From: Microcoleus sp. CAN_BIN18
GTDB taxonomy: Bacteria; Cyanobacteriota; Cyanobacteriia; Cyanobacteriales; Microcoleaceae
Length of the DNA stretch: 32,573 nt
Assembly (NCBI GenBank): GCA_026786085.1
Contig: JAJAYT010000056.1
Coordinates: forward strand, 1 to 32,573
Direction: 5' to 3'
Numbering within the stretch: the stretch's first letter is position 1; each line of letters starts with the position of its first letter. A program made the position numbers and the translations under genes. Below, in pieces: positions 16,622-32,247 of the stretch. Under the pieces are notes generated by a model. That model searched no databases. It was given only the letters and a program-made list of their open reading frames with translations, and had not been told where the DNA came from.

Positions 16622-16680
16622 GGGCGGGTTTAGCTAAGGAGCTATGATACTTATGACTAAAAAAAAGGCAAAACCCGCCC
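16622..16680 (+). promoter_or_regulatory. Inverted repeat enclosing the ribosome site and start of the giant gene
   Basis: GGGCGGGTTT (16622-16631) and its exact reverse complement AAACCCGCCC (16671-16680) could pair in the mRNA. The 39-base loop contains AAGGAG (16636-16641) and both candidate start codons (16644 and 16653). Such a G:C-rich stem could modulate translation. The arms also look like those of dispersed cyanobacterial hairpin repeats, so the first codons of the gene may come from an inserted repeat. Confidence 0.55.
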
Positions 16681-19600
16681 TCTCCCAGGGAAGAAGAAAG
16701 GAAGGAATAGTTAACAAATTAGAATCAGTTAGTAATTACAAGTTAGCGAACTCCCAAATAACAAAGACAACTATGGCTTCTAAGAAAAAATCGCAAAAAT
16801 CTGCCGTCAAAATGCGTGCTGAAGACTCTTTAAACATAGCTTGGGAACATCATCAAGCGGGGCGTTTGTTAGAAGCTGAAAGTTTGTACCGGCAAATCGT
16901 AGAAGTGCAGCCGGAATCAGCAAATGTGCTGTGTTTGTTGGGAATAGCGCTTAGACAGCAGGGGAAAGTTGCGGAGGCGATCGACTTTTACGATCGCGCG
17001 ATCGCCCAAAACCCCGATTTTGTAGAAGCACATTTAAATAAGGCTCAGGTTTTGCTGGATGTAGGCGAGTATCAAAGGGCGATCGCCAGTTATGAACAAG
17101 TTATCACAATTCAGCCAAGTTCCGTACTCGCCAACAATAATTTGGGCTGGCTCAAACAGCAATTGGGCGAAATTGACTCGGCAATTTCATATTATCAAAC
17201 AGCGCTCCAACTCGACCCCAACCTGCTCGAAACAGCGCACAATTTAGGAAAAATATTTACAGAAACAAATCAATTAAATGAGGCAGTCGCCTGTTATCTG
17301 CACGCCTTGCGAATCAATCCCAAATTGACATATTCTCTACTCGGTTTGGGAAGAGTTTTGCAGCAACAAGGTAAATTAGCCGAAGCTTTTAACTGCTACC
17401 AGCAAGCTGTAGAACTAGAGCCAAATAATCCCGAAGCTCACAATAATGTCGGAGCATTTTACCACGAACAAGGCAATACAAAAGCAGCAATATCTCACTA
17501 CCGACAAGCATTAAACTTAAAGCCGGACTTCGTGGATACTATTAACAATCTCGCCCACGCTTTAGTAGATTTAGGAGAATTTCAAGAGGCATTTACTTAT
17601 CACCATCGAGCCTTGGAATTGCAGCCAGACAACGCCATTGCACATCTGGAATTAGCCTTAACTTTACTATTGTTTGGAGACTTTAAGCGCGGTTTTGCTG
17701 AATATGAGTGGCGGTGGCGCACTGCGCAACTATCGCCGAGGGAATTTATGCAGCCTGTTTGGGATGGTGCGGATTTGCAGGGGAAAACTATTTTACTGCA
17801 CGTTGAGCAAGGTTTTGGCGATTCGATTCAGTTTATTCGATACGCGCCGATTCTGCGCAGCCGAGGCGCTAAAGTTCTGGTGGCTTGCTATCAAGAATTA
17901 ATGCGGTTATTTGCGACAGTTACGGGGATTGAATATTTATCAGTTAGTTTTGAGAATTTGCCAGCATTTGATGTTCACGCTCCGCTGATGAGTTTGCCGG
18001 GAATTGTGGGAACAACTCTGGAAACCATACCCGCAAATGTTCCTTATTTAGCTCCGCCTACTGAGTGCAAATTTGCTCTTTCTTCTGATGCAAAGTTGAA
18101 GGTGGGGATTGTTTGGGCGGGGAGTCCAAAACGGCGCAAAGATAATCAGCGCTCTGGCAATTTGACCGATTTTATTCAATTTTTTAATATTCCCGAAATT
18201 GCTTTTTATAGTTTACAAAAAAACTTGTCCGAGGGCGATCGCACTTTGCTCAACCAGCATTTGGTGCCGGATTTGAGTCCGCATCTGAATGACTTTGCTG
18301 ATACGGCTTCTGCTATCTCTCAACTGGATTTAGTGATTAGTGTCGATACTTCTGTTGCACATTTGGCTGGTGCGTTGGGAAAACCGGTTTGGGTGCTGCT
18401 TGGTTTTGCTCCTGACTGGCGCTGGCTGCTCGATCGCACTGACAATCCTTGGTATCCAACTGCAAGGCTGTTTCGCCAAAATCAGCCGGAAAGTTGGCAA
18501 GAATTGTTTGAAGAAGTGCAGGCGGCTTTGAGTTTATTTGCGATCGCCAATACTGCTAGTTATTCTCAGAATTTGGCGCAAAATCCGCTTGACTTTGCGG
18601 CCGCAATGGCTGTTAATTCTACGGCTTTTGTGGATGCGCTCGAAATGACGGATATTAGGATGATTGAGGACAGTAAACGGATAGTTGCGATCGCTAGTGA
18701 ATCGTTAGCGAAATCATCCGCAATCAACCAATCGCCGATCGTAATTGGCGACAATATACAAGATTTGTTGCGGCAAGCAGAACATTTAATGGAAACAGGC
18801 GATAAGGAAGAAGCGATCGCCCTTTATGAACAAATCATATCTGTTGACCCAAATTGCGTCCAAGCACGGATTAATTTTGGTTTTCTTAAGCAAGAAAAGG
18901 GGGAGTTAGACGCAGCAATCCCGCATTACCAACAAGCTTTAGCGCTCGATCCAAATGTTCCTCAAACAGCTTACAACTTGGCGAAGATTTTTGAGGAAAA
19001 AGGTCAAGTCGAAGAGGCGATCGCACATTACGAACAAGCTCTTGTCGTTGCACCGGATTTCGTGCCCGCACTGATCAATTTAGCGGTGGCGCTGCAAGAA
19101 AAGGACGAACTTTTAAGGGCGATCGAACTGTATCGGCGGGCGCTGGAAATTCAGCCACATAGCTGGGAAGCTTATAACAATCTCGGCACAGTTTTGCAAC
19201 ATCAGGGCAATTTAGAAGAGGCGCTGGAGCATTATCACAAAGCTCTAGAATTGCTGCCGGATTTTGTGGAAGCTATCAACAATTTAGGCAGGACGTTTCT
19301 GGAAAAAGGTGAGGTAGAAGATGCGATCGCCTGCTACAGACGGGCGATTCATCTAAATCCAGAACACGCTAGCGCTTACCTGAATTTGTCCTTGGCTTTG
19401 TTGTTGGTGGGAGATTTTGAAAATGGTCTTGCCGCCTACGAGTGGCGCTGGAAAATTCAAGAATTTAAAACTGGTCATTCCTGTTTTTTAAGTGGGCCGG
19501 AAAATGCAGTTTCGGCAAGAGAATATCGGCCGCTTTGGGATGGTTCTGATTTGCAGGGAAAGACGATTTTGCTGCACGCTGAACAAGGTTTTGGCGATTC

Positions 19601-22600
19601 GATTCAGTTTATTCGCTACGCGGCGATTGTTAAGGATAAAGGTGCTAGGGTAATTGTTGGCTGTTATCCGCAGTTGCACCGTTTGTTTGCAACGGTTCAG
19701 GGGATTGATTTGCTAATAGTTAAAGGTGAGCCAATGCCGGAATTTGACGTGCAAGTGCCGATGTTGAGTTTGCCATACATTATCGGTACAAATCTGGAAA
19801 CAATACCGGGAAATACTGCTTATTTGTCACCGCCTGCGAATGCTGAATTTGCGCTTTTACCCGGACGCAATTTGAAAATTGGGATTGTCTGGGCGGGGAA
19901 TCCCAAACATCGCAAGAATATGCAGCGTTCTTGCAGTTTAAGTCAGTTTCTCCCACTTTTGGACGTTTCGGGGGTAAGTTTTTATAGCTTGCAGAAAGAG
20001 CTTTCCGATGCCGATCGCGCGTTGTTGAATGTAACGCCGATCGTCGATTTGAGTCCGCATTTTGGCGATTTGGCGGATACTGCGGCTGCGATCGCCAAAC
20101 TGGATTTAGTGATTACTGTCGATACCGCTGTCGCCCATTTGGCGGGCGCTTTGGGCAAACCGGTCTGGATTTTGCTGGCCTTTTCCCCGGATTGGCGGTG
20201 GTTGTTGGATCGCGAAGATAGTCCTTGGTATCCGACGGCGCGGCTGTTTCGCCAGCATCAGCGGGGCGATTGGGAGGATTTGTTCGATCGGGTGGCGCAA
20301 GCTCTGGGCGCGCTGTCTGGGGCATTTGTACCGTCGGATTCGGCGGATGCAGAGTTTCGGTTGGGCCGAGATTTGCAGCAGCAGAGCAAGTTTGTGGGTG
20401 CGATCGAATGTTATCAGCGGGCGATCGCGATCGATCCGAATTATGCCGCCGCCCACAGCAATTTAGGTGTTGTCAAACAGCAAAGCGGGCGGTTAACAGA
20501 GGCGATCGCGCATTACCGACAAGCCTTAGAAATCGACCCGAATTTGGGGGAAACTGCGAGCAATTTGGGTAGCGCGTTGGCGGAAGCAGGGGACACAGCA
20601 GGGGCGATCGCAGAATACGAGCGGGCGCTTGCTTTGAACCCGAATTGCGCGGAAGCGCTGGTTAATTTGGGGGTGTTGCGGGAAGAGCAAGGGGATGTTG
20701 TGGAGGCTGTAAGATGCTACGAGCAAGCGATTCAAGTCAATCCTAATTGCGCTGCGGCTTATTTGAATTTGGGAATTGCTTTGGAGGAACAAGGGGAAGC
20801 GGCGGGCGCGAATTACGATCGCGCGATCGCAAGTTACGAACGGGCGATCGCGATCGAACCCAATTGTTTCGACGCTTTGCACAACCTAGCACACTGCTCG
20901 ATCCGACAGGGCAGAATTGCAGATGCGATCGCCTATTACGATCGAGCTCTGGCGCTGCAACCGGATTTGCCCCAAACCGGACTCGCGATCGGGAGTTGGC
21001 TGTCAAACCAAGATCAATTAGATGAGGCTCTAGTTGTTTGCCAGCAAGCAATTCAGGATTTTGCAGCCAGTGCGATCGCTCGCTGCAATCTGGCAATTGT
21101 CCTGCACAAACAGGGGGAAATTGCTGATGCGATCGCCTGCTATCAGGAAGCTTTGAGCCTGAAACCCGACTTCCCAGAGGCTTTGAACAATCTCGGTAAA
21201 GCTTTTGAGGAAGCCGGAAAAATGGCAGAGGCGATCGATTGTTACCGTCGGGCGATCGAACTCAAACCCGGTTATCTCAATTCCCTCAACGGTTTGGGAA
21301 ACATTTTGCACCAAAGCGGACAATTTGCCGGTGCTGTCACTTGCTACAGCGAAGCCGTTAAATTCAATATCGCCAACCCCGAATCTCACCTAAATTTAGG
21401 TTTAGCTTTGCTGCTGGCTGGAGACTTGCAGCGCGGTTTTTCCGAGTACGAATGGCGGCTATTGGTTGAACAAAAACAGTATCCGTGTCGCAACTTTCAA
21501 CAACCGCTTTGGGACGGCAAAGATTTGCAAGGAAAAACTATTTTGCTCTGCCCAGAACAGGGTTTAGGCGATGCCATTCAGTTTGTCCGCTACGCAGATT
21601 TAGTCAAGCAAAAAGGCGGCCAGGTAATAGTTTGGTGTTTGCCACACTTACAGCGCTTGTTTGCACAGGTTGCAGGAATCGATGAGTTAATAATTAATCC
21701 AGAGGATGCACCGGATTTTCAAGTTCGCGCGCAGTTAATGAGTTTGCCGCACCTGCTGGGAACAACTTTAGAAAGTATACCGACAAATGTTCCTTATTTA
21801 GCTCCGCCGCCCGGTTTGAAATTTACTCTGGGCCAAACTGCTAATCTCAAAGTAGGGCTTGTTTGGTCTGGTAATTCCAAACATTCGCAAAATAAAGTGC
21901 GATCGTTCCCGCTCAATTTGTTGACAAAACTGTTAGATATCCGGGGAGTAGATTTCTACAGTTTGCAAAAGGAAATGACAGCAGACGATCGCACTTTGTT
22001 AGAGAAAATGCCCGTCATCGATTTAAGCCCTGATTTGCACGACATGGCTGATACTGCGGCGGCAATTTCGGCTCTGGATTTAGTGATTTCTGTCGATACT
22101 TCGGTGGCGCACTTAGCTGGTGCTTTGGGTAAATCGGTGTGGATTTTGTTGTGCTTTGTACCGGATTGGCGGTGGATGTTGGAGCGGGAAGATAGTCCTT
22201 GGTATCCGACGGCGCGGTTGTTTCGTCAGTCAGCAGCCACAGATTGGGAAGCAGTTTTAGAACGGGTAATTTTGGCGCTGAAAGAAAGAGTTGGCGAGCA
22301 TCAAATAACTGGTTCGCCAATAGAAAGTCAGCCGAATATTCCGTTAGCTAAAAAACAGTTCGATCGCGGAAATGTGCTGAAATCTCAAGGAAAATTTACC
22401 GATGCGATCGCGTATTTTAAGAATGCTTTGGTTTTGCAGCCAGATTCGATCGAGTCCGCTACTAATTTGGCAGTGACGCTGCACCAAACAGGGGATTTAG
22501 CCGAAGCTGCCACGTATTATCAGCGCGCGATCGAAATCGACCCTAACTGCGCTCAAGCGCAAAATAACTTGGGTATTTTGCTACAAGATCGGGGCAGTAT

Positions 22601-25600
22601 CGCCGATGCTGTATCTTGTTTTCAAAAGGCGATCGCCCTGAATCCGCTTTACGCCAAAGCTCTCAACAATCTCGGTGCGACACTCCAGCAGCAGGGCGAG
22701 TTGTCGAGTGCGATCGTCTGTTTTCAGCAAGCACTTTCCGTCAATTCCAATTACGTGCCAGCCCTGGTAAATTTGGGCGCGGCGATGCAAGCAAAATGTC
22801 AGCTAGCAGAGGCAAAACGGCTTTACGAGCGTTCAATTGAAGCAGAACCGAACAATCCTACAGGACATTATCACCTGGGAACATTATGTTTGGGAATCAA
22901 CAAAATAGAACAGGCAATTTCTAGCTTGGAGCTAGCAATATCTTTACAGCCAAATTATGTAGAAGCTATCAACAATTTAGGCAGTGCTGTTGAACGATTA
23001 GGAGACGTAAACCGGGCTATTTTGTGTTACAATAAAGCCCTCGAAATCGATCCAAATTGTGCTAAAGCTCACTTCAATCTAGGCTTAGTCTTGCTGTTGA
23101 CGGGGGAATTGCCGCGTGGTTTAGCAGAGTACGAATGGCGCTGGCAAACAGATCAGGCCAAACAATTGCAACGGTTGAATTTTGACAAGCCAATTTGGGA
23201 TGGTTCCGATTTGAACGGACAAACTATTTTGCTTCGATCTGAACAAGGTTTGGGCGATGCAATTCAATTTGTACGTTACGCCAAAATGGTGCAGCAAAAA
23301 GGCGGTAAAGTAGTTATTTCTTGCTATCAAGAACTGAAGCGCTTATTTAAGCAAATTCCTGGCATCGAAAAAGTTGCGGTGCGGATGGAAGAATTGCCGG
23401 ATTTCCAAGTGCAAGCATCGCTGATGAGTTTGCCACACATTCTGGGAACAAATTTAGACAATATACCTGCAAATGTTCCTTATTTAGCTGCATCTCCGAA
23501 TTGGCAGTTTTCGCTAAATTCCGATGCCAATTTCAAAGTTGGGATTGTGTGGGCCGGAAGTTCGGAACATTTGAAGGATTTTGCGCGATCGAGCGATTTG
23601 AGATATTTCCTCAAATTGTTAGATATTCCGGGCATAACTTTTTACAGTCTTCAGAAACAGTTGTCGGTGGCGGAGCACACTTTGTTAACTCAAATTTCCG
23701 TCATTGATTTGAGCGACAATTTGAACGATTTTGCCGATACTGCGGCGGTGATATCGCAACTGGATTTAGTAATTTCTGTGGATACTGCTGTCGCACATTT
23801 AGCCGGTGCTTTAGGCAAACCAGTCTGGATCTTGCTGTCTTTTATGCCGGATTGGCGGTGGCTTTTGGATCGCGAAGATTCTCCTTGGTATCCAACAGCG
23901 CGACTGTTTCGACAGCAAACACTGGGTGATTGGGAGGGAGTGTGCGATCGGCTAAAAACCGCCTTGCAAGAGATTGTGGGCGCGGAAGCACCGCCCGTAA
24001 ATCAATTTTTGTCGCCTACACAGGTAGAAATTCACATCGCAAATGCCTTACAAAAACAAGGTAAAAAAGCAGCAGCAACCGCTCGATACGAACAAGTAAT
24101 TGTTGCCTCACCCAGCAACGCAGAAGCCCACAGTCATTTAGGTTATTTTCAACAAAAAAATGGGCAAATAGCCGAGGCAATATCGCACTACAAACAAGCC
24201 CTAGAAACTAATCCCAACCTGAGCGAAACGAACTTACACTTAGGTTGCGCCCTCGAAGAACAAGGAAAAGTTGCTGAGGCGATCGACTACTATACTAAAG
24301 CAATTCAACTATCTCCCGATTCGCCGAATTCGCGCTTGAGATTAGCATTAGCTTTGCTTTTAACTGGTAATTTACAGCGCGGTTTTGCCGAGTACGAATC
24401 GCGCTGGCAAACGAAAGAATTGGAGCCAAGATATTTCGCCGAACCACTTTGGGACGGTTCCGATTTGCAGGGAAAAACGATTTTGCTGCACCCAGAACAA
24501 GGTTTAGGGGATACGATACAGTTTATCCGCTACGCGCCTTTAGTCAAGCAAAAAGGCGGCCAAGTTATGGTGGCTTGCAATCTGTTGCTGAAGCGTTTAT
24601 TTGAAGGAATTGCCGGAGTCGATCGCGTAGTAGTGCAGCCGAGGGATTTAGTAGAGTTTCAAGTGCAAGCCCCGCTGATGAGTTTACCGCGAATTCTAGA
24701 AACAACTCTCGAAAATATACCTGCTACTATTCCTTATTTAGTTCCACCACAGGACTTTAAATTTGTCCTAGAACCGAACGATAGACTAAAAGTAGGTATT
24801 GTCTGGGCGGGCGGCCCGCTGCATCGCAAGAATCATGAGCGATCGTGTAAATTGATCGATTTTCTGAAATTTGTAGATGTTCCGGGAGCGAGTTTTTACA
24901 GCATTCAAAAAGATTTGTCAGCCGCCAATCTAACTTTATTAAATCAACAGAAAATCCCAGATTTGAGCCAACATTGCGTTGATTTTGCGGACACCGCAGC
25001 GATTATTTCGCAACTGGATTTAGTGATTTGTGTAGACACTTCAGTCGCCCATTTAGCAGGTGCTTTAGGCAAACCGGTGTGGATTTTGTTGTCCTTTATT
25101 CCCGATTGGCGGTGGATGTTGGAACGCGAAGACAGCCCTTGGTATCCTACTGCGCGGTTGTTTAGGCAGGAAAAAGCGGGTGATTGGGATGATGTGTGCG
25201 ATCGCGTAAAAACAGCCTTACAAGACACGGTGAACACGCACCATCCACAAGACAGGGCGAGTACGGAGGCTGCGCCCCTACAATCTGGGATTGAACTTGC
25301 ACAAACACCCATACAAATAACCGGAATCGGCATTAGTTGGCCAGTCAGCGTCATCAGCGGCTGGGGAATTTATGGCATGAATTTAACACTGCAACTGCTG
25401 AAAAATTCCGCCTGGGAAGTTGCACTTTTAGCACCGCCATCCATCACCTCAGAATCTATCAATCCCCTGCACAAATCCCTGTTATTACCTGTAGTAGAAA
25501 AGCACCAACAATTTCAGGAATTAGTAACCGCCAATGCAGACAAACAAATAAATTGCAACTTTCCCGTACTTTACGCTTTAGGAAATAATTTAGCATCCTC

Positions 25601-26495
25601 TGGAATTGAGCATCAAATTACCAGTGATTGTCAAGTAGGAGTGATATTTTTTGAAGACACCAGAATCACATCAGAAGCACTCGAAAAAGCCAAAAAATAT
25701 AGCACAATTGTCGCCGGTTCCAACTGGAATGCGGATGTTTTGCGAAACTGCGGCTTGACTAACGTGGCAATGGTAAATCAAGGAATTGACCCCACAATTT
25801 TCCATCCTGCACCTAAATCTAATCTATTTGGCGATCGCTTTGTCATCTTCTCCGGCGGCAAACTGGAATATCGCAAAGGTCAAGATATTGTAATTGCCGC
25901 TTTCAAACGATTTCGCGCCAAACATCCAGAAGCTTTATTACTAACAACATGGCACAACTTCTGGCCTCAGTATATGCTGGGAATCGAACAAACCGGAAAC
26001 GTTGCCGGACTTCCCCATATCAACCGCGACGGAAGTTTAGGAATTTCCCAATGGTTAGCGGCTAACGGTTTGCCAGTTGAATCTTTTATCGACATCGGCT
26101 TAATTCCCAATCACCTCGCCGGACAAATTTTGCGAGAAGCCGACTGCGCTGTTTTCACCAACCGCTGCGAAGGCGGCACTAATTTAGTCGCAATGGAAAG
26201 TATGGCCTGCGGAATTCCTACTATTTTATCGGCAAATACTGGGCATTTAGACTTAATTTACAGCAACATTTGCTATCCTTTATCGCATCAAGGACGAGTT
26301 AAACCGACTGCTCATTTTCCAGGTGTAGAAGGTTGGGGAGAGTCGGATGTTGCAGAAGTTGTTGAGGCTTTGGAGCAAGTTTATACTAATCGCGAAGTAG
26401 CAAAAACTCGCGGTTTAGCTGCGGCGAATTTTATGGTCGATTGGACTTGGGAAAAACAGGTGAAGCGTTTTCTGAATGTTATTAGGGAGCTTTAG
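16653..26495 (+). CDS. Giant TPR protein with five GT9-like and one GT4-like glycosyltransferase modules
   Basis: About 3280 residues, numbered here from ATG 16653 (AAGGAG 11 bases upstream; ATG 16644 is only 2 bases from it, and Met at 16773 is a third option). Blocks of 34-residue TPRs alternate with GT9/heptosyltransferase-like catalytic domains. TPR counts are 8, 6, 10, 7 and 3, starting near residues 56, 700, 1230, 1890 and 2455. Each GT domain begins at W-D-G (370, 962, 1620, 2182, 2600). It then shows EQG-GD-IQF-RYA, VWAG or VWSG, the acidic DTSVAHLAGALGK block, PDWRW and PWYPTARLFRQ. From about 2889 a GT4-like domain follows, with FSGGKLEYRKGQDIV and EGGTNLVAMESMACG. There is no signal peptide or membrane segment, so it is probably cytoplasmic. 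Sugar donors and acceptors are unknown; surface polysaccharide or protein glycosylation are both plausible. It follows hpt on the same strand after a heptamer array, so co-transcription is possible. Confidence 0.9.
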   Translation: MTKKKAKPALSQGRRKEGIVNKLESVSNYKLANSQITKTTMASKKKSQKSAVKMRAEDSLNIAWEHHQAGRLLEAESLYRQIVEVQPESANVLCLLGIALRQQGKVAEAIDFYDRAIAQNPDFVEAHLNKAQVLLDVGEYQRAIASYEQVITIQPSSVLANNNLGWLKQQLGEIDSAISYYQTALQLDPNLLETAHNLGKIFTETNQLNEAVACYLHALRINPKLTYSLLGLGRVLQQQGKLAEAFNCYQQAVELEPNNPEAHNNVGAFYHEQGNTKAAISHYRQALNLKPDFVDTINNLAHALVDLGEFQEAFTYHHRALELQPDNAIAHLELALTLLLFGDFKRGFAEYEWRWRTAQLSPREFMQPVWDGADLQGKTILLHVEQGFGDSIQFIRYAPILRSRGAKVLVACYQELMRLFATVTGIEYLSVSFENLPAFDVHAPLMSLPGIVGTTLETIPANVPYLAPPTECKFALSSDAKLKVGIVWAGSPKRRKDNQRSGNLTDFIQFFNIPEIAFYSLQKNLSEGDRTLLNQHLVPDLSPHLNDFADTASAISQLDLVISVDTSVAHLAGALGKPVWVLLGFAPDWRWLLDRTDNPWYPTARLFRQNQPESWQELFEEVQAALSLFAIANTASYSQNLAQNPLDFAAAMAVNSTAFVDALEMTDIRMIEDSKRIVAIASESLAKSSAINQSPIVIGDNIQDLLRQAEHLMETGDKEEAIALYEQIISVDPNCVQARINFGFLKQEKGELDAAIPHYQQALALDPNVPQTAYNLAKIFEEKGQVEEAIAHYEQALVVAPDFVPALINLAVALQEKDELLRAIELYRRALEIQPHSWEAYNNLGTVLQHQGNLEEALEHYHKALELLPDFVEAINNLGRTFLEKGEVEDAIACYRRAIHLNPEHASAYLNLSLALLLVGDFENGLAAYEWRWKIQEFKTGHSCFLSGPENAVSAREYRPLWDGSDLQGKTILLHAEQGFGDSIQFIRYAAIVKDKGARVIVGCYPQLHRLFATVQGIDLLIVKGEPMPEFDVQVPMLSLPYIIGTNLETIPGNTAYLSPPANAEFALLPGRNLKIGIVWAGNPKHRKNMQRSCSLSQFLPLLDVSGVSFYSLQKELSDADRALLNVTPIVDLSPHFGDLADTAAAIAKLDLVITVDTAVAHLAGALGKPVWILLAFSPDWRWLLDREDSPWYPTARLFRQHQRGDWEDLFDRVAQALGALSGAFVPSDSADAEFRLGRDLQQQSKFVGAIECYQRAIAIDPNYAAAHSNLGVVKQQSGRLTEAIAHYRQALEIDPNLGETASNLGSALAEAGDTAGAIAEYERALALNPNCAEALVNLGVLREEQGDVVEAVRCYEQAIQVNPNCAAAYLNLGIALEEQGEAAGANYDRAIASYERAIAIEPNCFDALHNLAHCSIRQGRIADAIAYYDRALALQPDLPQTGLAIGSWLSNQDQLDEALVVCQQAIQDFAASAIARCNLAIVLHKQGEIADAIACYQEALSLKPDFPEALNNLGKAFEEAGKMAEAIDCYRRAIELKPGYLNSLNGLGNILHQSGQFAGAVTCYSEAVKFNIANPESHLNLGLALLLAGDLQRGFSEYEWRLLVEQKQYPCRNFQQPLWDGKDLQGKTILLCPEQGLGDAIQFVRYADLVKQKGGQVIVWCLPHLQRLFAQVAGIDELIINPEDAPDFQVRAQLMSLPHLLGTTLESIPTNVPYLAPPPGLKFTLGQTANLKVGLVWSGNSKHSQNKVRSFPLNLLTKLLDIRGVDFYSLQKEMTADDRTLLEKMPVIDLSPDLHDMADTAAAISALDLVISVDTSVAHLAGALGKSVWILLCFVPDWRWMLEREDSPWYPTARLFRQSAATDWEAVLERVILALKERVGEHQITGSPIESQPNIPLAKKQFDRGNVLKSQGKFTDAIAYFKNALVLQPDSIESATNLAVTLHQTGDLAEAATYYQRAIEIDPNCAQAQNNLGILLQDRGSIADAVSCFQKAIALNPLYAKALNNLGATLQQQGELSSAIVCFQQALSVNSNYVPALVNLGAAMQAKCQLAEAKRLYERSIEAEPNNPTGHYHLGTLCLGINKIEQAISSLELAISLQPNYVEAINNLGSAVERLGDVNRAILCYNKALEIDPNCAKAHFNLGLVLLLTGELPRGLAEYEWRWQTDQAKQLQRLNFDKPIWDGSDLNGQTILLRSEQGLGDAIQFVRYAKMVQQKGGKVVISCYQELKRLFKQIPGIEKVAVRMEELPDFQVQASLMSLPHILGTNLDNIPANVPYLAASPNWQFSLNSDANFKVGIVWAGSSEHLKDFARSSDLRYFLKLLDIPGITFYSLQKQLSVAEHTLLTQISVIDLSDNLNDFADTAAVISQLDLVISVDTAVAHLAGALGKPVWILLSFMPDWRWLLDREDSPWYPTARLFRQQTLGDWEGVCDRLKTALQEIVGAEAPPVNQFLSPTQVEIHIANALQKQGKKAAATARYEQVIVASPSNAEAHSHLGYFQQKNGQIAEAISHYKQALETNPNLSETNLHLGCALEEQGKVAEAIDYYTKAIQLSPDSPNSRLRLALALLLTGNLQRGFAEYESRWQTKELEPRYFAEPLWDGSDLQGKTILLHPEQGLGDTIQFIRYAPLVKQKGGQVMVACNLLLKRLFEGIAGVDRVVVQPRDLVEFQVQAPLMSLPRILETTLENIPATIPYLVPPQDFKFVLEPNDRLKVGIVWAGGPLHRKNHERSCKLIDFLKFVDVPGASFYSIQKDLSAANLTLLNQQKIPDLSQHCVDFADTAAIISQLDLVICVDTSVAHLAGALGKPVWILLSFIPDWRWMLEREDSPWYPTARLFRQEKAGDWDDVCDRVKTALQDTVNTHHPQDRASTEAAPLQSGIELAQTPIQITGIGISWPVSVISGWGIYGMNLTLQLLKNSAWEVALLAPPSITSESINPLHKSLLLPVVEKHQQFQELVTANADKQINCNFPVLYALGNNLASSGIEHQITSDCQVGVIFFEDTRITSEALEKAKKYSTIVAGSNWNADVLRNCGLTNVAMVNQGIDPTIFHPAPKSNLFGDRFVIFSGGKLEYRKGQDIVIAAFKRFRAKHPEALLLTTWHNFWPQYMLGIEQTGNVAGLPHINRDGSLGISQWLAANGLPVESFIDIGLIPNHLAGQILREADCAVFTNRCEGGTNLVAMESMACGIPTILSANTGHLDLIYSNICYPLSHQGRVKPTAHFPGVEGWGESDVAEVVEALEQVYTNREVAKTRGLAAANFMVDWTWEKQVKRFLNVIREL
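16818..25250 (+). repeat. Five-fold internal duplication (TPR + GT9 units)
   Basis: The DNA of the giant gene is a set of five long imperfect direct repeats, with GT cores at about 17730-18560, 19510-20320, 21490-22290, 23180-23980 and 24430-25240. Stretches of exact identity persist: 32 bases shared by modules 1 and 2 (17808-17839 = 19584-19615), and 30 bases shared by modules 2 and 3 (20214-20243 = 22188-22217). Modules 3 and 5 share about 24 bases in the LVKQKGGQ coding segment (near 21597 and 24538). These suggest recent exchange between modules. Confidence 0.85.
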
Positions 26496-26501
26496 ATAAC
26501 A

Positions 26502-26567
26502 GGTTCGTAGTCAGGACTTTAGTCCTTCTTCATCCCATAGAGAGGACTAAAGTCCTCACTACAAACC
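26502..26567 (+). terminator. Long hairpin downstream of the giant gene
   Basis: Arms of about 25 bases with two mismatches start 6 bases after the stop codon. The left arm contains CAGGACTTTAGTCCT and the right arm AGGACTAAAGTCCT, around a 16-base loop. Its position supports a transcript-end role. Hairpins of this 'AGGACTAAAGTCCT' type are, to my memory, also dispersed repeats in cyanobacteria. Confidence 0.55.
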
Positions 26568-26699
26568 TGCCGGACTTAATAAATCGGGGTAGACTACCGT
26601 GTTGGGAACAATTTTGCAATATTTGAGGCTCATCAGTGAACGATGCCCCCCATTTATTGAGCGGATATGATAATAATTATTCTCAAGCCTAATGAAATG

Positions 26700-26845
26700 C
26701 AATACGGTTCACTTAACATATTTATGCCCCGGAGATCCCCCTAAATCCCCCTTAAGAAGGGGGACTTTGAGGGCATTCTTGTCCCACCCCCTACTCCCCT
26801 TTTTAAGGGGGGTTAGGGGGGATCTGTCTTAAGTAAACCGTATTG
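26700..26845. mobile_element. 146-bp MITE with 10-bp target-site duplication
   Basis: The termini CAATACGGTTCACTTAA (26700-26716) and TTAAGTAAACCGTATTG (26829-26845) are inverted repeats matching at 16 of 17 positions. Immediately outside, TAATGAAATG is present on both sides (26690-26699 and 26846-26855), a 10-bp target-site duplication. The interior contains two more G/C-rich inverted blocks (CCCCCTTAAGAAGGGGG and CCCCTTTTTAAGGGGGG types) and no open frame. It must be mobilised in trans by a transposase elsewhere. The right duplication ends 10 bases from the kinase stop codon. Confidence 0.88.
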
Positions 26846-26865
26846 TAATGAAATGGGCTATTACT

Positions 26866-28218
26866 TCAGTGTGTGTAAATCAGGGGCAAACTAACGGTAA
26901 AGACACTGCCTTTTGTCAGTTCACTTTGAACAATGATCCGACCTTGATGAGTCTGAGCGATCGCCTGAGCAATTGCCAAACCCAAACCCGATCCACCTGT
27001 GGTACGCGCCCGATCGCTCTGCACCCGATAAAAGCGATCGAAGATGCGGTTTTGCTCGGATGAAGGAATCCCAATGCCAGTGTCTTGAATGTGAATCAGA
27101 GCTTCATCCGGGGTGCGATCGAGAATTGCCAAAACGGTTCCTCCCATAGGCGTGTAGTGAATCGCATTGGTAATCAGATTAGAAACCATACGATAAAGTT
27201 GGGCTGAGTCTCCCAAAATGACGGTTGGCGCTGGAGTCCGTAAGTCTAATTTCAATGTCACCGATGCGTTGACAGACATTCCTTCGAGTTCTTCTACCAA
27301 ATCTGTGAGAACATCGATCAGATTGCAAGGATTGAGTTGCAGAGACGGACGTTGTTCCAGTCGGCAAATTAGAAGTAAATCTTTCACAAGCTGCGACAAC
27401 CGCCCTATTTGTCGCTCCATAATGTCTAAATTATGATGGATTTCGGGCAGTTCTTCAGCAAGTTTCGTTTCTTCTAACGCACTATACAGAACAGTCAGTG
27501 GCGTTCGCAGTTCATGGGCAGCATCGGAGGTGAACTGCTGCATTTGACGATAAGATCGATCGATCGGGCGCATGGCAAGTCCAGCCAGCCACCAGCTTGC
27601 ACCAGTCACTAAAAAAATGGCAAATGGGACTCCCAACAGCAGCAGTAACCGCAGCAGATATAGATAGGCATCCCACTCTTGTAGCGATCGCCCAACCTGT
27701 ACATAGCCCCAGGGGATATTTGACCGCGTTCTTAGGGGCATAGAGATTTGATAGAAGTTAGAATCGTCCTTAACACCAGATAATTGTTGCCAATATTCTG
27801 AAGCGACTAGAGAACCAGAAAATATTGGTTGTTGCCCGATGGTGGCAATCACTTGATTTGCGCGATCGACAAAACGAACGTAGTAGCCTTGCTGCTGAAA
27901 AACGCCTGCGATGTGTCGTCCAGAGGCATTCTCGATTGAGTTTGCTAAAGTCTGGCATACTTCGCCAGGGAAACATAAACCAGGCAACATCATAGTGACT
28001 TGAGAATTTAGCTTCCCAGGCTGCTCCAGCACTGGTTCAATAGTATCGTGTAGCGTTCCGGCTAATGATTCTAGCTTTTGGCGCAAAATATAGCGCTGCG
28101 TGTGTAGTACAGCCTGATATAACCCAAAACCACACAGACTCAATAGCAAGCCGATCGCCAACGCATACCAACCAGCCAATCGCCATTGAGTGCGGACAAA
28201 TATAGGATTGTGCTTCAA
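26866..28218 (-). CDS. Sensor histidine kinase, NrsS/RppB-like
   Basis: Inner-membrane sensor kinase of a metal-responsive two-component system. 450 residues: TM1 (about 15-37), a periplasmic sensor of about 150 residues, TM2 (about 188-215), HAMP-like RPIDRSYRQM, and the HisKA box FTSDAAHELRTPLTV with His235. The N box (NLITNAIHYTP), DTGIGIP, FDRFYR and GGSGLGLAIAQ of the ATPase domain are all present. The periplasmic domain carries Cys82 and Cys88 (LCFPGEVCQ), possible metal or disulfide residues. Start is TTG at 28218, supported by AGAGGTG (28224-28230) 5 bases upstream. The gene follows the response regulator and pump on the same strand. It resembles Synechocystis NrsS/RppB, known for nickel and redox sensing; which metal is sensed here is not shown. 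Confidence 0.9.
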   Translation of the reverse strand: MKHNPIFVRTQWRLAGWYALAIGLLLSLCGFGLYQAVLHTQRYILRQKLESLAGTLHDTIEPVLEQPGKLNSQVTMMLPGLCFPGEVCQTLANSIENASGRHIAGVFQQQGYYVRFVDRANQVIATIGQQPIFSGSLVASEYWQQLSGVKDDSNFYQISMPLRTRSNIPWGYVQVGRSLQEWDAYLYLLRLLLLLGVPFAIFLVTGASWWLAGLAMRPIDRSYRQMQQFTSDAAHELRTPLTVLYSALEETKLAEELPEIHHNLDIMERQIGRLSQLVKDLLLICRLEQRPSLQLNPCNLIDVLTDLVEELEGMSVNASVTLKLDLRTPAPTVILGDSAQLYRMVSNLITNAIHYTPMGGTVLAILDRTPDEALIHIQDTGIGIPSSEQNRIFDRFYRVQSDRARTTGGSGLGLAIAQAIAQTHQGRIIVQSELTKGSVFTVSLPLIYTH

Positions 28219-28406
28219 AAATACACCTCTTAAAAAAGTCGCAAATTATCTTAAAAAGCATCTGCGTTTATCCGCGTTTATCTGCCTGGAATCTGCGGTT
28301 GCATTCATCAAAAATTTATGCAACTCAAGTCTAATAGACCTCTCCCATAATTATTGTGGAGCAGGCATCTTGCCTGCTCTTAACAGGCTTTTTAGGAGAA
28401 CTCAAT
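28219..28406. other. Repeat-invaded gap between response regulator and kinase
   Basis: In most relatives the two regulatory genes nearly touch; here 188 bases separate them. The gap contains a GAGCAGGC hairpin (28359-28379, 8-bp stem, 5-base loop) and a stretch near 28256-28305 with repeated GCGTTTATC-type sequence like the spacer at 5357-5388. Both look like dispersed repeats inserted into an operon. Confidence 0.5.
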
Positions 28407-29096
28407 TTAACCAACCAGCCGATAGCCAAATCCATGCACAGTTTCAATCATACCTGCACAGCCACAGTCTGCCAGTTGTCGACGCAAGAGGCGAATTCTA
28501 GCAGAAACAACATTGCTGATGGGCTCAGCATCCATTTCCCAGAGTTGGGTAAGAAGCTGATCCCGGCTGAGAGTTTGATTGGGGTGTTTCATCATATATT
28601 CCAGCAACCGAAACTCGTTCGCAGTGAGTGGAATGGATTGACGTTGCCCTGAATTGTTCATGGTAGCGATACCAGAAATTGCGTAAACAAGCACCAGTCG
28701 CCCAACCTGGATCTGTTGGGGTTGGAAACAGGGCGATCGACGCTGAAGTGCGCGCAGCCTTGCCAGCAGTTCTGTTTTAACAAAAGGCTTCACAAGATAA
28801 TCATCTGCCCCTGCATCCAACCCCAGCACCAGATCCGACCTTTGATCTTTAGCAGTCAACATCAACACAGGTAAAGCACAACGCTTCTGACGCAACCGCT
28901 GACAGAGTTCGATGCTAGAAAGACCAGGCAGCAACCAGTCCAAGACAGCAACCGAGTATTCTGCCCACTGCTGTTCCAAATAGTCCCAAGCGACTAAGCC
29001 ATCCTGCACCCAGTCCACCAGATATTTCTCGCGACTGAGGGTTCGTTGCAAGAGTGCTCCTAAATCTGGTTCGTCTTCGACCAATAAGATTCGCAT
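28407..29096 (-). CDS. OmpR-family response regulator, NrsR/RppA-like
   Basis: DNA-binding partner of the kinase downstream. 229 residues. The receiver domain (1-115) has acidic pocket Glu7/Asp8, phospho-acceptor Asp53 in VAVLDWLLPG, Thr in VLMLTAKD and Lys in DYLVKPF. The C-terminal winged helix (about 130-227) has LTANEFRLLEYMMKHPNQTL, SNVVSARIRLLRRQL and the closing ETVHGFGYRLVG. Length is standard. ATG at 29096 lies 10 bases after the stop of the RND pump gene, so the regulator is very probably translated from the pump mRNA. By analogy with NrsR it should activate the metal-efflux promoter, which lies outside the window to the right. Confidence 0.93.
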   Translation of the reverse strand: MRILLVEDEPDLGALLQRTLSREKYLVDWVQDGLVAWDYLEQQWAEYSVAVLDWLLPGLSSIELCQRLRQKRCALPVLMLTAKDQRSDLVLGLDAGADDYLVKPFVKTELLARLRALQRRSPCFQPQQIQVGRLVLVYAISGIATMNNSGQRQSIPLTANEFRLLEYMMKHPNQTLSRDQLLTQLWEMDAEPISNVVSARIRLLRRQLADCGCAGMIETVHGFGYRLVG

Positions 29097-29106
29097 GGGA
29101 TTGATA

Positions 29107-32100
29107 CTAAAGGACTACAGCTTTCTCGTCAAAGAATTTTGTTGATCTGGGCTTGAGAAGCTTGCCAAATCGAGCATACAATGCAAGCAGTACCAACAAG
29201 GTCAACACCGTTGAGGTAAACAAGCCACCCAAAACAACGATCGCCAGTGGCTGCAACAATTCTTTCCCAGCACCGCCTCCTAACACGAGGGGAACTACTC
29301 CCAAGGCCGAAGTCAGGGCAGTCATCAAAATTGCCAGCAACCGTTCCATCGCCCCTTCCACAATAACTTTCGACATCGGCATTCCCTGAAGCAGCTTGAC
29401 GTTGTAGTTATCCACCAATAACAAGCCATTGCGAGTTGCCACGCCAAAGAGTGTCACAAAACCAACCATTGAAGGAACTGAAAGCGTTCCTCCGGTGAGT
29501 AAGACTGCAATCACACCGCCGACGAGTGCTAGCGGTAGATTGACCATAATCATCAGCATGGCGGGAACGGACTTGACGGTGAAATACATCAAAATTGCGA
29601 TCGCAACTACCGCGAATAGTCCAACAATCACAAAGTTACGAGTTGATTCTTGTTGTGACTTGTACTGTCCGCCATACTCGATCGAATATCCTTGAGGGAG
29701 TTGCACAGCTTGACCGACGCGATCGCGAATATCACCGACAACCGAGCCAACATCACGACTGTCAACGTTAGCAGAAACCACAATCAGCCGTGAGACATTC
29801 TCTCGGTTAATCGTATTCGGCCCTCTGCCGTAGTCAATCTTGGCTAACTGCGAGAACGGCACTTGTTGTCCAGTCGGAGTAGTAACGGGCAGGGCGCGAA
29901 TGGCATCTAAATTGTTCCGTGCCGATTTAGTTACCCAAACCATCAGATCCACTAACTGTTGTCCGTCCGACACTTGAGAGACAATGCGACCATTTAATGC
30001 TGTTTCAGCGAAATTTGAGACCTGCGTTAGTGTCAGCCCGTACCGTGCTGCTGCGTCGCGATCGAATTGAATCTGCACCTGACGAATTGGAATTTGAGGC
30101 TCTAGTTGCAAATCCACCAGTCCCTTGACATCTTTGATTGAGGTTTCAACCTGTTCTCCAATGCGCCGTAATTCCTGAAGATCGGGCCCGAAGACTTTAA
30201 TCGCGATCGCACTTCGCACCCCAGATAAAACTTCATCCATGCGGTGAGAAATAAATCCCCCAATATTGGTCACAACGCCTGGAAACTGTCCCATGATTTG
30301 TCGCAATGCCTGAATTGTAGCAGGACGATTTTTCATCGCCGCCTCACTCAATTCGACATCTAAGTGCGCCAAGTTCACTGAAGCAGCATCGGGATCGCCC
30401 GGAGCTCGTCCGGCGCGAAGTTGCACTGATTCAAATCGCGGATCTGCCTTGAGCGCATTTTGAATCGCCATTCCAATGCGGTTCGTGGATTCCAAGGAAG
30501 AACCGGGATAAAGCGCGATCGCATTCATCAAAGATTTTTCCTGAAATGTCGGTAAAAAATCCCGTCCGAGGGTAGGTACAACAACCATCGCCGCGACGCT
30601 AGCTGCGATCGTAACTCCCATAATTATCGTAGATTGTCGCATCGCCAACTCAAGCACGGGTCGGTAGATTCGCTTTGATAACTCCGCGACAAAAGATTCG
30701 CTAGTTTTCATTCGACTGTGGGGCAACAACACCGCACACAACGCAGGCGAAATCAGCATCGATTCCAAACTCGAAACAACTACCACAACCAAATACGCAA
30801 TTCCCATCGGCGTGAAAATTCGCCCTTCCACCCCTGACAATGTAAAAATTGGCGAGAACACAATAATACCGATTAACATTGCGCCAATCAGGGACTCTCG
30901 AACTTCCTGACCGCCTTCAAAAATCACCTGCATCACAGGTTTGGGATTTTCAGACAGATGATTTTCTCGCAAACGGCGATAAGTATTCTCACAGTAAACA
31001 ATGGCATCGTCAACCGCAGTACCAATGGCAACGGCAAGACCACCTAACACCATCGTATTGAGTTCTAAGCCAATCCAATTACAGATGAGCAGCGAAAATA
31101 GCAACGTTAAAAAGAAGTCTAAAAGGCAGACAGTTAATGTTCGCCAATTCATCAGAAATGGAATCAGAATAATAGCGACAATCACACTGCCTTCAATCAA
31201 TGCCGATCGCACATTATCCACAGACGCATTGATATAGGCATCTTGACGGAACGTTACCGTTGCTTTGACATCTTTGGGGAAACTAGCTTTCAATTCATCC
31301 ATTGTTCGCATGATGGCGCGGGTTACAGTGGGACTATCCACCAACGGCTGTTTGTTCACCATCACCACGATCGCGCGTTTTCCATTCCAACTCGCATCGC
31401 CGCGCTGAAGAGCGGCCCCGATCTTCACCTCTGCCACATTTTGCAGTTGAATCGGTTTCCCGTCGCGAATTGCCACCACAGCCTTTTGCAGATCTTCAAT
31501 ATTCTGAATTTGTCCTTCTCCACGCACCACCAATTCCAGATCCGGTGAAATCAGCAATCCGCCCGAAGTCTTTGCATTTGCTTCAGTTGCTGCCACTACC
31601 ACATCCTGAAGTGATATCTTCAATGCTTTGAGCTTTTCGGGATTGGCGATCACTTGAAACTGACGGACATCGCCACCATAAACCAACACCTGCGACACGC
31701 CGGGAACAGCCATCAAGCGATTATGAATCACACCATCAACCAAACTGCGAACATCCATCAGCGAGGTTTTTTCTGATGTGAACGCATACTGAATTACCGT
31801 GCCAATCGGTGGTGATAACGGCGAGATTTGAGGAGTTCCGACTCCTTCTGGGAGCTTATTCTGAGCTTCCTGAAGTCGTTCTGATACAAGTTCTCGTGCG
31901 GTTTGTGGATCTGTGCCCCACTTGAATACAATCCGCAGGACAGAAATCCCGACAGCAGAGGACGATCGCACTACTTGCACTCCAGGCGCACCATTCACAG
32001 CACTTTCTAAAGGCAGTGTCACCAGCGATTCGACGGCTTCCGGCGCAAGTCCTGGGGCTTCGGTTTGAACTTCGACTTGGGGGGGTGCAAAATTTGGCAA

Positions 32101-32214
32101 TACATCCAGGGGCATCTGACTGACGCTATGGATGCTCCAAATTGTCAGCGCGATCGCACCGGCAATCACAAACCATCGCTGTGCGATCGCCCATTTTGGA
32201 ATCAGGTTCAGCAT
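29107..32214 (-). CDS. Heavy-metal efflux RND transporter (CusA/CzcA/NrsA-like)
   Basis: Proton-driven inner-membrane pump that, with a periplasmic adaptor and outer-membrane channel, exports metal cations. About 1035 residues in the usual RND plan: TM1 near the N-terminus, a large periplasmic loop with PQVEVQTEAPGLAPEAVE, and TM2-TM6 with the proton-relay segment GGLAVAIGTAVDDAIVYCEN. That segment contains the paired Asp typical of the heavy-metal subfamily, followed by YRRLREN. A second periplasmic loop and closing helices (VGFVTLFGVATRNGLLLVDN) follow. The frame can start at TTG 32241, but ATG 32214 (MLNLIPKWAIAQRW) matches the family N-terminus. The C-terminus is basic and short. The adaptor lies upstream, the response regulator 10 bases downstream. 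Metal specificity (Ni, Co, Cu, Zn) is not decided by sequence alone. Confidence 0.93.
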   Translation of the reverse strand: MLNLIPKWAIAQRWFVIAGAIALTIWSIHSVSQMPLDVLPNFAPPQVEVQTEAPGLAPEAVESLVTLPLESAVNGAPGVQVVRSSSAVGISVLRIVFKWGTDPQTARELVSERLQEAQNKLPEGVGTPQISPLSPPIGTVIQYAFTSEKTSLMDVRSLVDGVIHNRLMAVPGVSQVLVYGGDVRQFQVIANPEKLKALKISLQDVVVAATEANAKTSGGLLISPDLELVVRGEGQIQNIEDLQKAVVAIRDGKPIQLQNVAEVKIGAALQRGDASWNGKRAIVVMVNKQPLVDSPTVTRAIMRTMDELKASFPKDVKATVTFRQDAYINASVDNVRSALIEGSVIVAIILIPFLMNWRTLTVCLLDFFLTLLFSLLICNWIGLELNTMVLGGLAVAIGTAVDDAIVYCENTYRRLRENHLSENPKPVMQVIFEGGQEVRESLIGAMLIGIIVFSPIFTLSGVEGRIFTPMGIAYLVVVVVSSLESMLISPALCAVLLPHSRMKTSESFVAELSKRIYRPVLELAMRQSTIIMGVTIAASVAAMVVVPTLGRDFLPTFQEKSLMNAIALYPGSSLESTNRIGMAIQNALKADPRFESVQLRAGRAPGDPDAASVNLAHLDVELSEAAMKNRPATIQALRQIMGQFPGVVTNIGGFISHRMDEVLSGVRSAIAIKVFGPDLQELRRIGEQVETSIKDVKGLVDLQLEPQIPIRQVQIQFDRDAAARYGLTLTQVSNFAETALNGRIVSQVSDGQQLVDLMVWVTKSARNNLDAIRALPVTTPTGQQVPFSQLAKIDYGRGPNTINRENVSRLIVVSANVDSRDVGSVVGDIRDRVGQAVQLPQGYSIEYGGQYKSQQESTRNFVIVGLFAVVAIAILMYFTVKSVPAMLMIMVNLPLALVGGVIAVLLTGGTLSVPSMVGFVTLFGVATRNGLLLVDNYNVKLLQGMPMSKVIVEGAMERLLAILMTALTSALGVVPLVLGGGAGKELLQPLAIVVLGGLFTSTVLTLLVLLALYARFGKLLKPRSTKFFDEKAVVL

Positions 32215-32247
32215 AAAATTTGGGTTAAAAATTAATAGCAAGCTCTA

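Follow-up and report, generated by a model that had tools for sequence, protein, structure and literature searches.

In the passage of PMC3733652 that defines them, MITEs are elements of 70-300 bp that lack coding capacity and whose terminal inverted repeats measure 15-30 bp. For the IS4 subgroup of insertion sequences (ISs), the corresponding row in Table 1 of De Palmenaer et al. 2008 (PMC2266710) lists ends of the form -AATR--------WTW---- and a target duplication of 10-13 bp; a size range of 1400-1650 bp is given for the subgroup in the same paper, parts of which also describe modular IS231 elements. REP palindromes, according to PMC1525189, serve as targets of ISs. The window, i.e. the whole 32,573-nucleotide stretch of Microcoleus DNA that was analysed, holds a recently inserted MITE, which is of a known kind, with parents in the IS4 subgroup, and is mostly ordinary. 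No published description of this IS4-type MITE family was found in the titles and abstract openings searched.

The element and its surroundings

The initial annotation had proposed a 146-bp element whose inverted ends are 17 bp long and which is flanked by an exact duplication of the 10-bp sequence TAATGAAATG, and all of this was borne out (Table 1), the left end CAATACGGTTCACTTAA and the right end TTAAGTAAACCGTATTG being complementary at 16 of 17 positions. When the own genome was searched with a 166-bp query, the five best other matches began at query positions 7-11 and stopped at 156-160, which places the edges of the element where they had been set. Judged by frame length, the claimed lack of coding capacity also held: four start-to-stop frames of at least 20 aa touch the element, the longest of which (47 aa) lies almost entirely outside it, while the longest frame inside (46 aa, 26692-26832) starts within the left target copy. 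The internal palindromic blocks are likewise real, since the element as single-stranded DNA has a folding energy of -36.4 kcal/mol, vs -19.2 on average for shuffled sequences (z -6.5). In addition to the size, ends and coding properties of a MITE, the element has multiple copies with duplications, a filled and an empty site, and an autonomous element with the same ends, as detailed below.

Table 1. Coordinates, in the window, of the element, its parts and the neighboring genes.
Feature	Position	Strand	Remarks
3283-aa ORF, convergent with the kinase gene	16644..26495	+	TPR-like and glycosyltransferase-like stretches read from the translation
Left target-site duplication copy TAATGAAATG, 10 bp	26690..26699	+	Present once, as TAATAAAATG, in the empty site of G004
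MITE, 146 bp, non-autonomous, IS4-type	26700..26845	+	Ends, flanking duplication, other copies
Left terminal inverted repeat, 17 bp	26700..26716	+	
Palindromic core, 94 bp, AGATCCCCC...GGGGGATCT	26733..26826	no strand	Occurs also without IS4-type ends
Right terminal inverted repeat, 17 bp	26829..26845	-	
Right target-site duplication copy TAATGAAATG, 10 bp	26846..26855	+	
Sensor histidine kinase gene, RppB type	26866..28218	-	Element just beyond its stop codon

The insertion lies between two convergent genes and interrupts neither ORF. As had been noted, 10 bases separate the right target copy, ending at 26855, from the minus-strand kinase ORF, whose end is at 26866. Above the NCBI cut-offs, the kinase matches RppB, the response regulator RppA and the upstream transporter a metal-efflux pump of the CusA/CzcA type, and the stretch 26866-32241, with an RppB-type kinase, an RppA-type regulator and a CusA/CzcA-type RND pump in a row, is probably a metal-response and efflux locus. 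In the 3283-aa ORF on the other side, the TPR-like and glycosyltransferase-like blocks appear repeated in our reading of the translation. A separate hairpin repeat is situated directly 3' of this ORF (26498-26571); its version in the relative G027 is longer, apparently by one extra unit. A consensus scan of 26480-26900 for a terminator or promoter role gave none, and the Rfam search returned six matches, all below the gathering score and all to microRNA families.

Copies, full-length relatives and the empty site

The genome search for the 17-bp ends that had been suggested as a check revealed many further copies. At up to two mismatches, 155 ends (73 forward and 82 reverse) were found in the own assembly, a 6.03-Mb draft in 668 contigs with 94% completeness, vs 0 and 1 in the reversed control, and with 155 ends against one the element is more than a product of chance. 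The 166-bp query gave 51 matching pieces in this genome and a match in 48 out of 59 genomes (the own genome and 58 relatives), some of which match the core only. The exact end of 18 bp, two of its positions being given as Y and S, is present in 23 of the 195 genomes of the order, the own genome included, and in 14 of the 94 genera; the control pattern for this end had no match across the 195 genomes.

The duplication was assessed in 64 end-pairs with at most three mismatches per end and 60-320 bp between the ends, taken from loci that had been fetched for other reasons; two pairs were treated as one only where the element and one of its flanks agreed letter for letter, and a few pairs may therefore represent one insertion in two genomes. 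Exact 10-bp flanking repeats were found in 34 of these pairs, compared with a mean of 0.5 when the flank pairing was shuffled, and no exact repeats of 6-9 or 11-13 bp were present among the 64. The remaining 30 pairs are without an exact 10-bp repeat, and a separate count identified a 9/10 match in 12 out of 56. The 10-bp duplication is thus a property of the family, in agreement with the earlier suggestion of a transposase family that makes duplications of this length. The 34 exact targets have the consensus nnnTATAnnn, with 62, 58, 58 and 62 out of 68 at the four TATA positions, where each target was counted in both orientations and the symmetry arises by construction. The target of the window itself, TAATGAAATG, with TGAA at its centre instead of TATA, is one of the exceptions.

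Full-length ISs with these ends were found in relatives, as had been looked for in checking the ends against complete elements. The IS at L158, which is identical to that at L180 in Microcoleus sp. FACHB-61, is 1486 bp long, and the one at L258 (genome G078) 1488 bp; both have perfect 18-bp ends, an exact 10-bp duplication and an intact transposase. The right end of the window element together with the next bases matches one end of the FACHB-61 IS at 22 of 23 bp. The two transposases, identical in 310 of 423 aligned columns, have the Y-x2-R-x3-E-x6-K (YREK) motif at residue 329, and that of L158 contains the domains PF13006 (Nterm_IS4) and PF01609 (DDE_Tnp_1) and scores 185.8 bits, vs a cut-off of 115, for the NCBIfam IS4 family NF033592. 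The DDE domain, the Y(2)R(3)E(6)K spacing, the end pattern and the 10-bp duplication that characterize an IS4-subgroup parent are all present. No sequence match to this transposase was found among solved structures. Copies without an exact duplication are a 1483-bp one with a broken frame (L161, in G016) and a 1067-bp one with a truncated gene and MITE-type ends (L259, in G089), while a more distant relative in Desmonostoc has different ends and also a 10-bp duplication. The L158 and L258 transposase frames open ~35 bp inside the IS, and their first 71 codons lack an ATG; codon 13 of L158, a GTG, is the first common start.

When the own draft assembly was searched, a 420-aa transposase query found nothing and a 150-aa query only a 27% match, although the latter did detect closer relatives in other genomes searched alongside. 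The 150-aa query derives from G011, where a broken relative of the IS4-type transposase, i.e. of the true parent type, lies beside one end (L102). Another transposase-like ORF in G011, recognized by reading and situated beside a 156-bp end-pair (L101), was set aside as a parent, since a complete element bounded by these ends was not seen there.

Empty sites were searched for with the right flank alone as query, which gave three close orthologous places, 96-98% identical over this flank. One is in a congener, G004, where the alignment runs without gaps across the insertion point, with 170 of 186 columns identical (170 being derived from the alignment score), and contains a single TAATAAAATG, which differs from TAATGAAATG in one of ten bases. 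G024 likewise aligns across the junction with no gap, 123 of 135 columns being identical, on a left side that has diverged and soon stops matching, and in G027 the site has been lost within a deletion and there is no element. The finding that had been named in advance as speaking against the insertion, i.e. a relative lacking the element and still carrying both copies of TAATGAAATG, was not seen, as G004 has one copy, and the empty site that had been asked for in relatives was thereby obtained. The best-matching copy elsewhere is in G019, of the same genus; it is identical at 144 of 146 positions, lies at a different site and has an exact duplication of its own, so that the family has moved recently. 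The youth claimed for the insertion accordingly has the support of the exact duplication, the absence from the three closest orthologous places and this G019 copy. Each of the three checks suggested at the outset (further copies, full ISs with the same ends, an empty site) thus favoured the initial interpretation.

Palindromic core and interior

The window element has 17-23 bp at each end in common with the parents. Beyond the ends, no similarity of its interior to the parent ISs was found, which gives no support to descent by simple internal deletion. The interior is a palindromic repeat set between parental ends rather than a remnant of the known parents.

The 94-bp core has 54 matching pieces in the own genome. 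Among the 30 of these that were examined as core copies, 21 had both IS4-type ends, three had one (L189 at a contig edge; L192 and L216 diverged) and six had none. A second MITE family, with the ends TACCAATTTAATGTGAAG, contains the core in all nine fetched copies (L217-L225; eight by a strict string test), and no 10-bp repeat was found in its printed flanks. TTA follows the right end in seven of the nine. Plasmids of Nostoc, Kovacikia and other cyanobacteria carry pieces of the element as well, all within element positions 34-126, in eight records of which none covers 80%. Conversely, elements of 100-103 bp with the same IS4-type ends carry another, unrelated palindromic repeat, ATTGCGAGGAACGAAGCAATCGCA. 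Of its 35 places, 30 copies were examined: both ends were present in 11, one in four and none in 13 (L237 and L250 among these being an identical stretch), and two lay at a contig edge. The 94-bp core is hence found within two MITE families that have different ends, and the IS4-type ends enclose at least two unrelated palindromes. Frames and cores are thus combined in more than one way, which looks like interchangeable cores within a transposon frame.

Origin of the element and comparison with known systems

Taking the ends, the duplication, the full-length relatives and the empty site together, we consider it almost certain that the element is a MITE that has the ends of an IS4-subgroup IS and landed, with a 10-bp duplication, after the split from G004, probably moved in trans by such a transposase. 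An IS4-type transposase supplied in trans would recognize both 17-18-bp ends, excise the element and join it to a 10-base staggered cut, most often around TATA, after which gap repair would leave the 10-bp duplication. The landing, between two convergent genes and 10 bases past the kinase stop, would have followed the separation of the lineage from that of G004. The cut-and-paste mode and the action in trans are presumed from what is typical of the family; movement in trans is moreover probable because the own draft assembly yielded no close transposase, and we infer that the parent has either been lost from this genome or is missing in its assembly.

An element that is ancestral and was precisely lost from G004 and G024, and hence is not recent, would leave the same single target copy behind. 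Such a history requires precise removal in more than one lineage, though, while the third relative, G027, shows a deletion instead and the duplication in the window is still intact at 10 of 10 positions; we regard it as very improbable. Another source of the transposase was suggested by a 1723-bp stretch in G020 that combines IS4-type ends and a 10-bp duplication with an intact transposase of the Tn5 type, so that an IS50/Tn5-type element between such ends could be the parent. The transposase, however, does not lie directly between the MITE ends and belongs to a separate 1576-bp element with ends of its own (CTATGCCTTACTCACATC...). Out of the 10 copies of this IS in G020, eight distinct loci were examined (L107, L115, L120, L122-L126); it has its own ends at all eight and its own exact 9-10-bp duplication at six, whereas only one lies inside a copy with both IS4-type ends. 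The other two loci tested with the ends of the G020 element had one end (L108) and none (L109). The Tn5-type element is therefore ruled out as parent, an origin with hardly any probability left, and is instead an independent element that in one case sits inside a MITE copy. It was inserted in a core-type CCCCCTT...AAGGGGG palindrome at all eight loci, seven of which are without both IS4-type ends nearby, and thus appears to target this type of palindrome. The palindromic interior and the many copies might finally bring to mind a REP/BIME-type repeat, spread by a tyrosine (RAYT) transposase instead of a DDE element. Fixed 10-bp duplications are not known from elements of that type, which counts against this reading; with ends that match a DDE IS exactly, and an empty site with a single target copy, it is extremely unlikely.

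A different proposal concerns the interior, namely that the core palindrome is itself mobile, with the IS4-type frame as one of several landing places, so that the window would hold a mobile repeat inside a MITE. The six of 30 own-genome core copies without IS4-type ends and the three with one agree with this, as does the core in all nine fetched copies of the TACCAATTTAATGTGAAG family. No transposase is tied to the core, however, and the same picture would arise if ends were captured or if palindromes underwent gene conversion with one another, for which reasons we find a mobile core doubtful. The 10-bp duplication and the empty site are not affected by this proposal, since they belong to the outer element. 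For that outer element we retain an IS4-type MITE that inserted recently. As to the interior, we put forward tentatively that cyanobacterial MITEs may be built of exchangeable end frames of ~20 bp and a palindromic core, with one core shared by frames from two or more kinds of transposon whose ends are unrelated, and that this core may act as a cruciform-forming hub where frames are swapped and where the Tn5-type IS of G020 lands by preference. If the cores are indeed exchangeable, the same palindromes would recur across cyanobacterial genomes by travelling in the frames of several transposons. This modular interior goes beyond the first reading of the locus and is the part for specialist follow-up.

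These data give the cyanobacteria an IS4-type MITE family whose full-length parents are known, whose duplication is defined as 10 bp and whose targets mostly centre on TATA, together with a filled and an empty site. Broadly, the element resembles the cyanobacterial MITE Nezha in its small size, inverted ends and host. The mobile insertion cassettes MIC231 carry passenger genes. With these IS231-type cassettes the window element shares IS4-family ends around a non-transposase interior, but window-type elements, of 100-173 bp, have as their interior a palindrome without a recognizable gene. The landing of the G020 Tn5-type IS in core-type palindromes is similar to the use of REP palindromes as IS targets in PMC1525189, from which it differs in that the IS is of IS50/Tn5 type, the host is a cyanobacterium and the palindrome lies inside a MITE in one of eight loci. 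Compared with the subgroup as summarized in PMC2266710, lastly, the end pattern, the 10-bp duplication, parents of 1486 and 1488 bp and a YREK transposase are all those of the IS4 subgroup, whereas the window element differs from the ISs of this subgroup in being without a transposase and in having only 17-23 bp per end in common with its parent.
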